This document shows, piece by piece, positions 53,797 to 58,272 of a DNA stretch of 64,000 nucleotides. The translations under genes and the position numbers were made by a program. Below the pieces are notes generated by a model. That model saw nothing but the letters and a program-made list of their open reading frames with translations. It was not told where the DNA came from and did not search any database. The first letter of the stretch is position 1. Each line of letters opens with the position of its first letter. Origin of the DNA: Rhodoferax sp. (GTDB taxonomy: Bacteria > Pseudomonadota > Gammaproteobacteria > Burkholderiales > Burkholderiaceae_C); the NCBI GenBank assembly GCA_030645355.1, contig JAUSNJ010000133.1, forward strand, positions 1 to 64,000. Reading direction: 5' to 3'.

Positions 53797-54903
53797 ATGA
53801 TCGATTTTTCTTTTGAGACACTGCGCCGCCTGGGACTGACCCCCGCCATGGCGCAAACCCTGGCCACCGTTGAGGTGGCCACCACTACGCCAACTGATGG
53901 CATATCGCACCATTGGATGCGCGCCACGGCCGTGCACCGCGAAACGGTGGACGTGCACGACGGCACCGACCAGAACGGCGCCCGCTGCACGACCCGCCTG
54001 ACCCGAGCGCTGGCGGACCAGGGCAGCGCACTGGCCGTCGGCGACTGGGTGCTGTGCTGCGTGGACGAACACCAGCAGCGCTGGGTGACGGAGCGCGCAC
54101 CACCACTGAGCCAGATCGTGCGCCGCGATGCCGACGGCAGCCGCCACACCATCGTCAGCAACGTGGACACCGCGCTGCTGGTCATGGGGCTGGACCTGGA
54201 CTTCAACCTGCAACGGCTGGAGCGCTACCTGGCCCTGGTGGGCAGCAGTGGCGTGCTGCCGGTCGTCGTGCTGACCAAAGCGGACGTCGCGCAGCACACC
54301 GCGCCCAATGCCGTGGAGCAGCGCCTGCAGCAGGTGCGTGCGCGGGTGGGCCAGCACGTGGATGTGGTGGCCGTGGACGCCCGCAGCGACGCGGCCGCGC
54401 AGGCGTTGCGCCCGTATCTCGGCATGGGCCAAACCCTGGTGCTGCTGGGCTCATCAGGAGCCGGCAAAAGCACACTGACCAACAGCCTGCTGGGCAGCAG
54501 CACGCAGGACACCGGCTCGGTACGCGAACACGACAGCCGTGGCAAGCACACCACCACCGCACGCTCGCTGCACCTGCTACCGCAGGGCGCCTGTGTCATC
54601 GACACGCCGGGCGTGCGCACGCTGCGTCCGGACGTGGACGCCCACACCCTTGGACAGTTGTTTGAGGACATCAGCAGCCTGGCCAATCAATGCCGGTTTC
54701 GTAACTGCAGCCACCAGGACGAACCCGGCTGCGCCGTGCGCGAGAACGTCGACCCGCTGCGCCTGAAGAACTACCACAAGCTGCTGCGCGAAACCCGCCG
54801 CGACAGCATGGGGGCGCTGGAGCGGCAAAGCCAGTTGGCGCAGTGGAAGTCGCGCACCAAGGCGGGCCGGCAGCGGCTCGAAATGAAGCGGGAAGGACGT
54901 TGA
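53797..54903 (+). CDS. rsgA: Ribosome small-subunit GTPase A
   Basis: 368 residues from MIDFSFETLRRLG. The GTPase motifs are in circularly permuted order: VVLTKAD (G4) near 158, LLGSSGAGKSTLTNSLLG (G1) near 218, and DTPGVRTL (G3) near 268, followed by the zinc knuckle CRFRNCSHQDEPGC. RsgA helps finish 30S subunits. The OB domain at the N-terminus is less clear. Three bases after its stop begins the left 23-bp direct repeat that is a copy of the mrcA 3' end. Confidence 0.92.
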   Translation: MIDFSFETLRRLGLTPAMAQTLATVEVATTTPTDGISHHWMRATAVHRETVDVHDGTDQNGARCTTRLTRALADQGSALAVGDWVLCCVDEHQQRWVTERAPPLSQIVRRDADGSRHTIVSNVDTALLVMGLDLDFNLQRLERYLALVGSSGVLPVVVLTKADVAQHTAPNAVEQRLQQVRARVGQHVDVVAVDARSDAAAQALRPYLGMGQTLVLLGSSGAGKSTLTNSLLGSSTQDTGSVREHDSRGKHTTTARSLHLLPQGACVIDTPGVRTLRPDVDAHTLGQLFEDISSLANQCRFRNCSHQDEPGCAVRENVDPLRLKNYHKLLRETRRDSMGALERQSQLAQWKSRTKAGRQRLEMKREGR

Positions 54904-54906
54904 CGC

Positions 54907-54929
54907 TAGTCCGCCGTCGCGTCATCCAG
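54907..54929. repeat. Left 23-bp direct repeat flanking a two-gene islet
   Basis: TAGTCCGCCGTCGCGTCATC plus CAG is identical to 55982-56004. Read on the minus strand it encodes LDDATAD and a stop, the C-terminus of PBP1a, out of context here. It marks the left junction of inserted DNA. Confidence 0.9.
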
Positions 54930-55010
54930 ACGAAATCGTCGACCAACTGATACGGCGGTGCCCAGCTGTTACTGGTATTCTTTCTGGCTATAGACAGTGA
55001 GTTGACGCGC

Positions 55011-55454
55011 ATGCAAATAACACTCCGCACCGCCGTGCCTGAAGACTATGAATTTTCCTTTGAGGCAAAGCGTCAGGCTCTGGGTCCGCACATCGCCGTT
55101 CGATGGGATTGGAATGAAGACTTCCAAGACGAAATGCACCGCAAGAGATGGAGCGAGCGGCCCTGGTCAATCATTCAAAATGAAGAGCAATCAATCGGCA
55201 CGCTGTCCGTGGAGGAAAAAGAAGATCACATTCGCTTTGGTGAGTTCTACCTCTTTCCTGAGCACCAACGCCAAGGCATCGGCTCAAGGGTTCTGCGGTT
55301 AGTGCTCGACAAAGCAGATACTCTGCGCTTGCCGGTGAGACTGGAGTACTTGAAGTGGAACCCCGTCGCCACTCTGTATCTGCGCAACGGGTTCGGGGTC
55401 GTGTCGCAAAACGACATACATTTTTTCTTGACGCGCGAGCCAAATGCATCCTGA
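55011..55454 (+). CDS. GNAT-family N-acetyltransferase (islet gene 1)
   Basis: 147 residues. The acetyl-CoA loop is in FYLFPEHQRQGIGSRVLRLV (QxxGxG/A form), and ATLYLRNGFGVVSQND is the usual motif B end. Substrate unknown. ATG at 55011 preferred over a TTG nine bases upstream. Base composition is visibly lower in GC than rsgA (53% in the 60 bases from 55081 against 75% in the 60 from 54361), and the gene lies between 23-bp direct repeats with the deaminase gene, so it looks imported. Confidence 0.85.
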   Translation: MQITLRTAVPEDYEFSFEAKRQALGPHIAVRWDWNEDFQDEMHRKRWSERPWSIIQNEEQSIGTLSVEEKEDHIRFGEFYLFPEHQRQGIGSRVLRLVLDKADTLRLPVRLEYLKWNPVATLYLRNGFGVVSQNDIHFFLTREPNAS

Positions 55455-55501
55455 CTTCCACGTCGGGCTGCGTGCAAAGGATTTCTGCTGATAGGCCGCC
55501 T

Positions 55502-55984
55502 ATGGACACAACACCTTCACACCCACACCGCGAACACATGCTCGCCGCGCTGTCACAAGCCAGGTTGGCACTCGACGCCGGAAACATGCCGATTGGCGCA
55601 GTCATTGTTCACAACGGCACCATCATCGCGGTGGGGCGCAATGCCATTGACTACCCCGCCAACGATACACACCACGCAGAGCTGTCGGCCATCCAAAGCG
55701 TGGCGTCGTTTTTGGCCACGCACAAGCGACAGTGCACGATTTACACAACCCTTGAACCCTGCATGATGTGCCTTGGGGCGATCATCAACGTGGGCATCCA
55801 ATCCATCGTTACCGGTGCGGCAGACCCTCTTGTGGGTGCGATCGACTTGCTTGCTTTCAGTGACTACTACCGACACAAGGGGAACGCGCTCCAGTTGGTG
55901 TCTGGATTCATGGCCGAAGAAAGCCAGGCACTGCTGAACGCGTATGTGCGCAAAACGGGGCTTCGCGCGCACCTCGCCACTTAG
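55502..55984 (+). CDS. Nucleoside/nucleobase deaminase, CDA superfamily (islet gene 2)
   Basis: 160 residues from MDTTPSHPHREHM. Zinc-deaminase motifs are complete: His58-Ala59-Glu60 (THHAELSAI) and Cys87/Cys90 in LEPCMMCLGAI, with MPIGAVIVHNGTIIAVGRNA upstream, as in TadA, guanine and cytosine deaminases. Which base it acts on cannot be read. It follows the GNAT gene by 47 bases. Its stop codon TAG lies inside the right 23-bp direct repeat, and its tail overlaps the convergent mrcA stop. Confidence 0.87.
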   Translation: MDTTPSHPHREHMLAALSQARLALDAGNMPIGAVIVHNGTIIAVGRNAIDYPANDTHHAELSAIQSVASFLATHKRQCTIYTTLEPCMMCLGAIINVGIQSIVTGAADPLVGAIDLLAFSDYYRHKGNALQLVSGFMAEESQALLNAYVRKTGLRAHLAT

Positions 55985-58272
55985 TCCGCCGTCGCGTCAT
56001 CCAGCCCCAGGGTCTTCACGCCGGCATCGCTGTCAAATTCGCTGAAGTTCCAGCGGCCGTCGACAAAATAAATCTGGTCCGGCACGACGCGCTCCGCCGC
56101 CACGGTGCCCACCAGCGCCTGGCGCATGGCGTCGATCCAGATGGGCAAGGCCAGCGTGGCGCCAAATTCGCGCGTGCCCAACGAGCGCGGTTCGTCGTAG
56201 CCCATCCACGCGACCGACACGATGTTGTTGGCGTAGCCGGCAAACCAGCCGTCCACGGCGTCACTGGTGGTGCCGGTTTTGCCGGCCAGGTCATGGCGCT
56301 CCAGCTTCACGCTGGCCTGGGCGCCAGTGCCCGACCGGGTGACTTCGCGCAGCATGCTGTCGGTGACAAAGGCGTTGCGCGCATCAATGGCGCGCGCGTC
56401 TTCGGGCGGCGTGTCTGGCTTGTCGGATTCAAACAGAACCTTGCCCTTGGCATCAACGACGCGCTGGATCAGCCAGGGGCTCACGCGGTAGCCGCCGTTG
56501 GCGAACACCCCATAGGCGCTGGCCAGCTGCACCGGCGTGACCGAGCCGGTGCCCAGCGCCATGGTCAGGTTGGAGGGATGCTTGTCGGCGTCAAACCCAA
56601 AACGGGACAGATAGTCGCGCGCATACTCCACGCCAATGGCCTTGAGGATGCGCACCGACACCACGTTTTTGGACTGCGCCAACGCGTCCTGCATGCGGAT
56701 GGGGCCGTCATATTTGTTGTCGTCGTTGCGCGGGTCCCACTTCAGGCTCTCGGTGGTGGTGGCCGACAGTTGCACATCGTTGATCAGCGTGGCCGGAGCG
56801 AAGCCCCGTTCCAGCGCCGCCGAGTAGACGAAGGGCTTGATGCTTGACCCCGGTTGGCGCCAGGCACTGGTGGCATGGTTGAAGTTCTTGCGGCGGAAAT
56901 CAAAGCCACCTACGAGCGCGCGGTAGGCGCCACTCTGGGCATTGAGCGAGACATAGGCGGCGTCCACCTCGGGCAATTGGGAGATGGCCCACTTCATGTT
57001 GCGGGTCTGCACGACGCGGATCAGCGCGCCGGGACGGATGCGCACCGCCTTGGCGGCATTGGGTTGCAACGCTGCAGCGGCAAAGCCCAGGCCCTCGGCC
57101 GTGACCTGGATGGATTCCCCCGAGGCCAGGTCGGCTTTGAGGGTCTTGCCCGCCACCACGGTCACCACGGCGGGCAACAGGCCGTCGCTGGCCGGGTGTT
57201 TTTGCAGCAACGCGTCGATGGCGTCGTCGCGGGCATCCTCGTCGGCTGGCAGTTCGATAATGGCTTCCGGGCCGCGGTAGCCATGGCGCTGGTCGTAGGC
57301 CAGCACATTGCGCCGCACCGACTCATACGCCGCCAGTTGCTCGGCCTGGCTGATGGTGGTCACCACCTTGAGGCCCATGGTGTAGGCCGCGTCCTGGTAC
57401 TGCGTGACCATGCTCTGGCGCACCATCTCGGCCACATAGGCGCCGTGGGATTCGACGTTGGGGCTGGTGTTGACGCGAATCGGCTCGGTGCTGGCCTGGT
57501 CGAACTGCACCTGCGTGATGTGGCCGTTGCGCAGCATGCTCCTGAGCACCTGCAGCTGGCGCTGTTTGGCGCGCTCCAGATTCACCGCCGGGTTGTGCCG
57601 GACCGGGTTCTTCGGCACGCCGGCGAGCATGGCCGCCTGGGCGATGCTCAATTCAGACAACGACTTTCCGAAGTAGGTGCGCGCTGCACTGGAAAAGCCG
57701 TAGCTGCGCTGGCCCAGGTAGATCTGGTTCATATACAGCTCCAGAATCTGGTCTTTGGTCAGCGCGCTTTCAATGCGGTAAGTGAGGATGGCCTCCTTGA
57801 GCTTGCGCGTCAGCGTGCGCTCCTGCGTCAGGTAGAAGTTGCGTGCCACCTGCATGGTGATGGTGGAAGCCCCCTCCTGCAGGCCGCCACTCAGAGCGCG
57901 TGCCAGACCAATGAAGTCCACCCCGCTGTGCGTGTAAAAACGCGCGTCTTCGATGGACAGCAGGGCGTTCTTCATCAGGTCGGGGATGTCCGCAATGGCC
58001 ACAAAGTCGCGGTGCTCCTGGCCAAATTCGCCAATCAGCACGTTGTCGGCCGTGTAGACGCGCAGTGGAAGCTTGGGCCGGTAGTCGGTCACCGCATCCA
58101 GCGTGGGCAGGCTGGGGATCAGCACCAGCACCACATAGGAGGCCAGCAGTACGCCCGCCAGGGACAGCACGGCGGCCAGCCCTGAAATCCATTTCACAAC
58201 AGACGGGCGATTGGCAAAAAAGGAGTGGGCTTGCACTGGGACGTTCAAAGCGAATAGGTTGGGGGCTGGCAT
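55981..58272 (-). CDS. mrcA: Penicillin-binding protein 1A
   Basis: 763 residues. A class A bifunctional cell-wall enzyme: an N-terminal membrane anchor (SGLAAVLSLAGVLLASYVVL), a GT51 glycosyltransferase (SIEDARFYTHSGVD, GASTITMQVARNFYL, QIYLGQRSYGFSSAARTYFG) and a transpeptidase with the active serine in RQPGSSIKPFVY and the KTGTTSDAVDGWFAGY box. It acts at the periplasmic face of the inner membrane. Its last 23 bases were duplicated when the adjacent islet inserted, and the stop codon TAA now includes one islet base. Confidence 0.95.
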   Translation of the reverse strand: MPAPNLFALNVPVQAHSFFANRPSVVKWISGLAAVLSLAGVLLASYVVLVLIPSLPTLDAVTDYRPKLPLRVYTADNVLIGEFGQEHRDFVAIADIPDLMKNALLSIEDARFYTHSGVDFIGLARALSGGLQEGASTITMQVARNFYLTQERTLTRKLKEAILTYRIESALTKDQILELYMNQIYLGQRSYGFSSAARTYFGKSLSELSIAQAAMLAGVPKNPVRHNPAVNLERAKQRQLQVLRSMLRNGHITQVQFDQASTEPIRVNTSPNVESHGAYVAEMVRQSMVTQYQDAAYTMGLKVVTTISQAEQLAAYESVRRNVLAYDQRHGYRGPEAIIELPADEDARDDAIDALLQKHPASDGLLPAVVTVVAGKTLKADLASGESIQVTAEGLGFAAAALQPNAAKAVRIRPGALIRVVQTRNMKWAISQLPEVDAAYVSLNAQSGAYRALVGGFDFRRKNFNHATSAWRQPGSSIKPFVYSAALERGFAPATLINDVQLSATTTESLKWDPRNDDNKYDGPIRMQDALAQSKNVVSVRILKAIGVEYARDYLSRFGFDADKHPSNLTMALGTGSVTPVQLASAYGVFANGGYRVSPWLIQRVVDAKGKVLFESDKPDTPPEDARAIDARNAFVTDSMLREVTRSGTGAQASVKLERHDLAGKTGTTSDAVDGWFAGYANNIVSVAWMGYDEPRSLGTREFGATLALPIWIDAMRQALVGTVAAERVVPDQIYFVDGRWNFSEFDSDAGVKTLGLDDATAD
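55982..56004. repeat. Right 23-bp direct repeat flanking a two-gene islet
   Basis: Exact copy of 54907-54929. Here it is the genuine 3' end of mrcA (LDDATAD) and also provides the deaminase stop codon on the other strand. Confidence 0.9.

Follow-up and report, generated by a model that had tools for sequence, protein, structure and literature searches.

Duplicated gene ends and inserted cargo at the convergent rsgA-mrcA junction of a Rhodoferax genome

Anatomy of the locus

The window analyzed here is a 64,000-nucleotide stretch of a Rhodoferax sp. genome (G000, a draft of 197 contigs that is 88% complete), and the feature under study is a two-gene islet that separates the convergent genes rsgA and mrcA and is flanked by two copies of the mrcA 3′ end. 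The left neighbor is rsgA (53797..54903, plus strand), which encodes the ribosome small-subunit-dependent GTPase A (PF03193, E 7.6e-46; NCBIfam TIGR00157 over the cut-off), and the right neighbor is mrcA (55981..58272, minus strand), a gene of the penicillin-binding protein 1A family (PF00912 and PF00905; TIGR02074 over the cut-off) and the one whose end is duplicated. The two copies form an exact 23-bp direct repeat, TAGTCCGCCGTCGCGTCATCCAG. The left copy (54907..54929) starts three bases after the rsgA stop codon (TGA at 54901-54903), and the right copy (55982..56004) is the present 3′ end of mrcA, whose stop codon on the minus strand (TAA at 55981-55983) overlaps the start of the repeat. 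An earlier reading by a model that saw only the letters and their open reading frames (ORFs), hereafter the original prediction, had put the repeats at these positions, with the right copy as the true end of mrcA and the left copy as a detached duplicate, and both the coordinates and the stop codons bear this out.

The 23-mer has no third copy in the G000 draft at up to 3 mismatches, and a repeat finder (seed 15) reported no other direct repeat in the 64-kb window with a length of 18 bp or more and a spacing of up to 10 kb. A chance origin was rejected, as the longest exact repeats reached 14-18 bp across 40 order-5 Markov simulations of the window.

Between the copies lies an insert of 1052 bp (54930..55981) that carries two genes, both on the plus strand and both named in the original prediction: a GNAT acetyltransferase gene of 146 aa (55014..55454; PF00583) and a TadA-like zinc deaminase gene of 160 aa (55502..55984; PF14437, E 1.7e-26, and PF00383), the latter with an orthologue at the same locus in the related genome G022. 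The deaminase stop codon (TAG at 55982-55984) coincides with the opening three bases of the right repeat and shares bases with the mrcA stop codon. Because the G022 orthologue extends three residues further at its end (HLATQAT versus HLAT), the window deaminase borrows its stop from the mrcA end.

The insert has a GC content of 55.4% (GNAT 52.6%, deaminase 58.2%), compared with 67.8% for rsgA, 64.0% for mrcA and 62.6% for the window, and ranks at the 0.2th percentile among 1075-bp stretches of the window. The predicted drop in GC is thus real, but the contrast is smaller than the 53% versus 75% that had been put forward.

The left junction of the islet has no flanking homology, and its right side continues into mrcA. 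Pfam and NCBIfam searches recognized no recombinase between the repeats and identified only the GNAT and deaminase genes there, and no transposase domain was found in the islet. None of the 21 listed inverted-repeat pairs lies at the islet ends, and the 23-mer has no dyad symmetry (shuffle p 0.99). Rfam gave no match at the locus at E up to 0.5, and no attC-like element was seen by eye. The absence of a recombinase and of terminal inverted repeats noted earlier stands within these searches.

Empty and filled junctions in related genomes

DNA searches for rsgA-mrcA junctions covered 103 genomes of the genus, G000 included, and follow-up stretches. A close rsgA (E up to 1e-60) was present in 11 of the 103, and rsgA and mrcA were convergent on one contig in seven. 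Three of these junctions are compact and lack the insert, with the two stop codons 4 bp (G092), 18 bp (G048) and 16 bp (G043) apart and one copy of the mrcA end at the junction. Such empty sites in relatives had been predicted. The other four junctions are filled, namely those of G000 (with the GNAT-deaminase islet), G022, G072 and G003.

At the empty junction of G092 the sequence is TTGA-GCGC-TAGTCCGCC, compared with TTGA-CGC-TAGTCCGCC on the left of the window islet. The comparison shows the left copy to be the former mrcA end, a detached stub in its ancestral place 3 bp past the rsgA stop, and the right copy to be the one that arrived with the insert. Relative to the G092 junction there is no deletion at the window locus. 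In the rsgA and mrcA trees, G092, G048 and G043 fall on separate branches around G000 and G022, so the compact junction is most simply ancestral. It is thus nearly certain that the islet is inserted DNA that regenerated the mrcA end, as the original prediction had proposed. We conclude that the islet was laterally acquired and was inserted 23 bp inside the mrcA 3′ end.

The rsgA-mrcA adjacency was also considered as an old trait of the family. This was rejected, since none of 40 rsgA loci fetched from outside the genus (from 76 at E up to 1e-90) has mrcA within 5 kb downstream, the span being less than 5 kb where contigs end.

Several neighboring arrangements were observed in passing. In G072 (L038) and G003 (L037), a lumazine-synthase gene (PF00885) lies between rsgA and mrcA, and the G003 interval additionally holds LysR, MerR and CMD genes, two aminotransferase genes and one AAA_26 gene. 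The G003 interval is probably a bio cluster, and G072 looks like a deletion derivative in which, judged by eye, MerR and CMD parts are fused. In the genome of G093 (L045), the sister species of G092, no rsgA was found at E 1e-60; its mrcA is separated from a methyltransferase gene by a DnaJ gene (PF00226) and a small HNH gene (PF01844).

Duplicated gene ends at related loci

The last 200 bp of mrcA, rsgA or both were compared with their surroundings in nine loci. Detached copies of a gene end were found in four of them (G000, G022, G092 and G023), with break points that differ and with two genes affected. The stub in G000 matches the mrcA end at 23 of 23 bp. In G022 the order is deaminase, a decayed mrcA end (31 bp at 87%), a solute-binding-protein gene (PF00497) and the true mrcA end. 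G000 and G022 align at 81.8% identity over 561 bp, from the deaminase into the mrcA end, of which 72 bp are spanned, and the decayed copy lies within this alignment. A decayed left stub in G022 did not rise above shuffled sequences (p 0.14).

G092 carries a 44-bp copy of the mrcA end (88.6% identity) upstream of rsgA (L254, reverse complement 1911-1954), between a GDP-mannose dehydratase gene (PF16363) and the rsgA leader, and this suggests that rsgA itself was inserted at a mrcA end. The stretch from this fragment to mrcA consists of rsgA with its leader and is not an element. In G023 it is the end of rsgA that is duplicated: 52 exact bp stand on both sides of a 2.8-kb islet (L250 4813-7693) whose cargo comprises mobile mystery proteins A and B (TIGR02612 over the cut-off, TIGR02613 below it) and a PemK-like toxin gene that is preceded by a small gene. 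The same genome holds, elsewhere (L315 19014-19917), an array resembling clustered regularly interspaced short palindromic repeats, with the 30-bp repeat AATCCCTTTCAAATCAGGGCATTAGTTATT at a spacing of about 70 bp.

No direct copy outside the genes was found in G048, G043, G003, G072 or G093; the matches in G048, G043 and G003 were weaker or inverted, and lay within the genes themselves or at E 0.04. Among the Pfam-scanned genes in the intervals of G022, G023, G072, G003, G093 and G092, no recombinase was recognized. Taken together, the results make it well supported that the convergent rsgA-mrcA junction is a hotspot of repeated acquisition with gene-end scars in this clade.

Two broader explanations of the duplication were rejected. 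Gene-end duplication is not a general trait of mrcA-like genes, since no second copy turned up at 20 less closely related loci within the genus (44-62% identical, with little or shorter flank in three). Nor is it a genome-wide habit. When the signature was defined as an exact repeat of 20 bp or more whose copies are separated by 150-9000 bp, one of them at the 3′ end of an ORF, the window locus was the one case in 603,865 bp of G000, and there was none in pieces of G022 (159,794 bp) or of G023 (189,111 bp, with the rsgA region left out). The 400,000 bp of G048 gave one 20-bp motif at two ORF ends, besides a 5.7-kb rRNA-like duplication and a repeat-rich ORF. For the pieces L246, L247 and L315, these counts are among the matches listed.

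Age and recombination signals

Between G000 and G022, fourfold sites differ at 29 of 74 positions in the deaminase, 62 of 198 in rsgA and 85 of 387 in mrcA, and the neighboring genes show a fourfold-site divergence of 0.24-0.41. An unconstrained 23-mer as old as the G000/G022 split would stay unchanged with P about 0.01-0.10 (branch lengths 0.20-0.10). Because the two copies in G000 are identical despite the divergence of the neighbors, the join probably postdates the shared deaminase. The shared, diverged deaminase and the identical 23-bp copies together suggest that filled and empty alleles of the clade recombined later. A mosaic signal was detected in the mrcA genes of G092 and G093 (158 sites, permutation p 0.011). 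Six genomes were searched for Ku and ComEC; Ku was found in none of them and ComEC in all.

Cargo genes

The deaminase falls below the NCBIfam TadA equivalog cut-off (82.8 versus 150 bits), and the solved structures that match its sequence best are TadA enzymes. Among the best 80 loci, the closest sequences from outside the clade come from Deefgea (69%) and Chitinibacter (66%). Within the genus, G022 was the one other genome in which it was found, the protein search having spanned just a few of the genus genomes. For the GNAT, the closest relatives found, at 53-57% identity, are encoded on plasmids of the alphaproteobacteria Leisingera and Thioclava and in one genome from a different family of the order; Vibrio replicons carry GNAT relatives as well. 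On the Leisingera plasmid (L157 3655-6694), the relative belongs to a row of small genes that all point the same way, among them another GNAT gene and a chloramphenicol phosphotransferase gene, and the row, which has a cassette-like look, is near a tyrosine recombinase.

The two genes were rejected as a fixed travelling pair, since in the fetched stretches the deaminase of Deefgea, Chitinibacter and G022 is not accompanied by this GNAT, and the GNAT stretches of Thioclava, Leisingera and G690 have no deaminase. In Chitinibacter (L077 4872-6356), the deaminase is followed by a convergent gene that resembles the solute-binding-protein gene of G022, in the same order as in G022. This shared order is probably a coincidence (22.5% identity over 71 aa, E 0.002).

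A phage origin was rejected as well. The GNAT was unmatched in 50,697 phage records, the deaminase matches there were TadA-like at less than 60% identity, and no viral contig was confirmed for either protein. Neither gene is a clear defense gene; the deaminase has a short match to the PADLOC dCTP deaminase model and scores 26 of 400 bits for the anti-phage deaminase family. The proteins would likely act in small-molecule modification, through nucleoside or base deamination and through acetylation.

Possible routes of insertion

The route that we favor is one-sided homologous recombination with an illegitimate join at the other side, known as homology-facilitated illegitimate recombination (HFIR). 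We hold it tentatively, at a probability of roughly 45%. The incoming fragment would have carried the GNAT and deaminase genes joined to a 3′ segment of mrcA, and would have come from a conspecific or related strain in which genes already stood at the junction. This fragment would recombine homologously within mrcA, and its other end would be joined illegitimately 23 bp inside the recipient's own mrcA end. The recipient's 23-bp stub would then remain beside rsgA, and the donor copy would become the working mrcA end. Selection would retain almost only those joins that spare rsgA and give a complete mrcA, an outcome that mimics site-specific integration. Because the stop codons are only 4-18 bp apart, nearly all survivors would be joined inside the end of the anchored gene and would leave a stub of variable length. 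Since the deaminase adjoins the mrcA end in both G000 and G022, a carrier of the deaminase together with a mrcA end existed in the clade. The variable break points also fit an unspecific joint better than a fixed crossover. Further points in favor of this route are the empty junctions, the probable youth of the join, the mosaic signal in the mrcA genes of G092 and G093, and the finding of ComEC but not Ku in the six genomes.

A number of observations weigh against this route. No donor genome was found with GNAT-deaminase-mrcA and a different left flank, and the identities of 23/23 bp in G000 and 52/52 bp in G023 are equally expected from site-specific integration or target-site duplication. 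According to PMC3240628, HFIR products generally have a deletion and mostly 3-10 bp of microhomology at the joint, and no deletion is visible at the window locus; of the four HFIR clones of that study itself, three had no homology at the joint. In the same E. coli study, most of the 60 clones were lacZ duplications and four were HFIR. The junction of G092 is empty, but that genome has the older mrcA fragment on the upstream side of rsgA. At the probabilities given above, the age argument is weak, and the divergence of the deaminase, higher than that of mrcA, would also fit if G000 and G022 had acquired it separately. The mosaic signal is modest, and the test behind it ignores differences in site rates and concerns G092 and G093 rather than the window species. 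The presence of ComEC shows little, since 10 of 14 control genomes also have it. The signature was not seen again elsewhere in the searched part of G000, and because of this rarity a general recombination route must invoke the history of the locus or selection. In addition, most genomes are fragmented drafts, and in G043 and G003 mrcA runs off the contig end; G048 is a single contig, and in G000, G022, G092 and G023 the junction is internal to its contig.

The main rival is site-specific integration at an attB site in the mrcA end by a recombinase acting in trans on a non-autonomous islet whose attP contains the last 23 bp of mrcA, like the SGI1-type islands at trmE. It would account for a clean 23-bp identity that finishes at the gene end, for the regenerated mrcA and for the existence of empty junctions. 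G022 can be read as tandem accretion at the same site, and G000 has seven PF00589 matches elsewhere, some of which are presumably XerC/XerD. On one contig of G000 (C189 2142-3562), two phage-integrase domains lie close together. The original prediction had likened the locus to site-specific integration into a gene end, and that comparison is not supported: neither an attP nor, between the repeats or among the genes scanned, a recombinase was found, dyad symmetry is lacking in the 23-mer, and other loci have stubs of other lengths and of another gene. In addition, all 12 viral contigs that match a 20-base version of the repeat are without rsgA, mrcA or a cargo gene. Each locus taken alone is compatible with an integrase, but the break points lie at 23 bp, across 72 bp, at 44 bp and at 52 bp in two different genes, and one integrase that always crosses over at the same point does not account for this series, even though old stubs may have eroded. 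We therefore regard site-specific integration as unlikely. Target-site duplication, in which the mrcA end would have broken in a staggered manner and been filled in on both sides of the insert through a transposase or end joining, is less probable still. The anatomy is the same as that of a 23-bp target-site duplication with identical copies; however, the islet has neither terminal inverted repeats nor a transposase domain, the exact lengths vary widely between loci (23 versus 52 bp), and the absence of Ku in the six genomes searched weakens end joining of staggered breaks.

Two further routes receive little weight. Single-crossover integration of a circle bearing the islet and the gene end, formed between the flanking copies in another strain as a recombinase-free translocatable unit, would give the same final anatomy. 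The usual minimum for RecA-dependent exchange is near or above 23 bp, so that the repeat of the window is near or below it, and the 52 bp of homology in G023 would suffice. The preponderance of lacZ duplications among the E. coli clones (PMC3240628) agrees with such integration, but circle forms are not visible in assemblies, and we consider this route very doubtful. An old insertion in the ancestor of G000 and G022, with a well-preserved left copy in G000 and a later loss in G022 of the left copy together with the GNAT gene, is the most improbable of the explanations weighed. The deaminase is indeed common to the locus in both genomes and its fourfold-site divergence is at least that of rsgA and mrcA; however, an unconstrained 23-mer would have had to stay unchanged for that long, and G022 has no significant left stub.

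With one-sided recombination as the favored route, it may also be asked if the junction is targeted by a new, recombinase-free way of moving cargo, in which islets travel joined to the 3′ end of the target gene, enter by recombination there and leave a stub each time, rsgA in G092 perhaps having re-entered in this manner. We regard this as an unlikely extension. No description of gene-end stubs at rsgA and mrcA was found among the literature records listed, at the level of titles and the beginnings of abstracts. Direct repeats of a gene end are usually taken as the mark of an integrase, and the four related loci have variable break points and no integrase that could be seen. If one-sided recombination is the true route, many islets without an integrase could be scars of recombination and of selection for intact gene ends. 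The rsgA-mrcA locus provides a natural series for this question, with three empty junctions, four filled ones and several stubs.

Comparison with known systems

The islet resembles integron gene cassettes in that it carries small accessory genes, with GNAT relatives on Vibrio replicons and in the row on the Leisingera plasmid. It differs in having no attC-like element that could be seen by eye, and to our knowledge the insertion of an integron cassette does not duplicate 23 bp of a core gene. With SGI1-type and other islands at trmE and yicC, as described in PMC8409611, it shares insertion at the 3′ end of a gene and flanking copies of that end. In contrast to those islands, it has no int/xis or mobilization module, measures 1 kb versus 43 kb, and has break points that are not fixed among relatives.

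The likeness to chromosomal hotspots of horizontal gene transfer (PMC5635113) lies in the small part of the chromosome involved, the repeated insertions and the rapid gene turnover. The rsgA-mrcA junction differs in that the ends of the flanking core genes are duplicated, which leaves a visible scar. HFIR is known from S. pneumoniae, A. baylyi, P. stutzeri and E. coli (PMC3240628). The window locus is similar to HFIR in that one side would be anchored in a homologous gene and the other joined without homology, in the amount of foreign DNA (about 1 kb) and in the lack of a dedicated recombinase. However, HFIR generally deletes DNA of the recipient, whereas the window locus keeps a stub of the gene end, and here the scars recur at one convergent junction.

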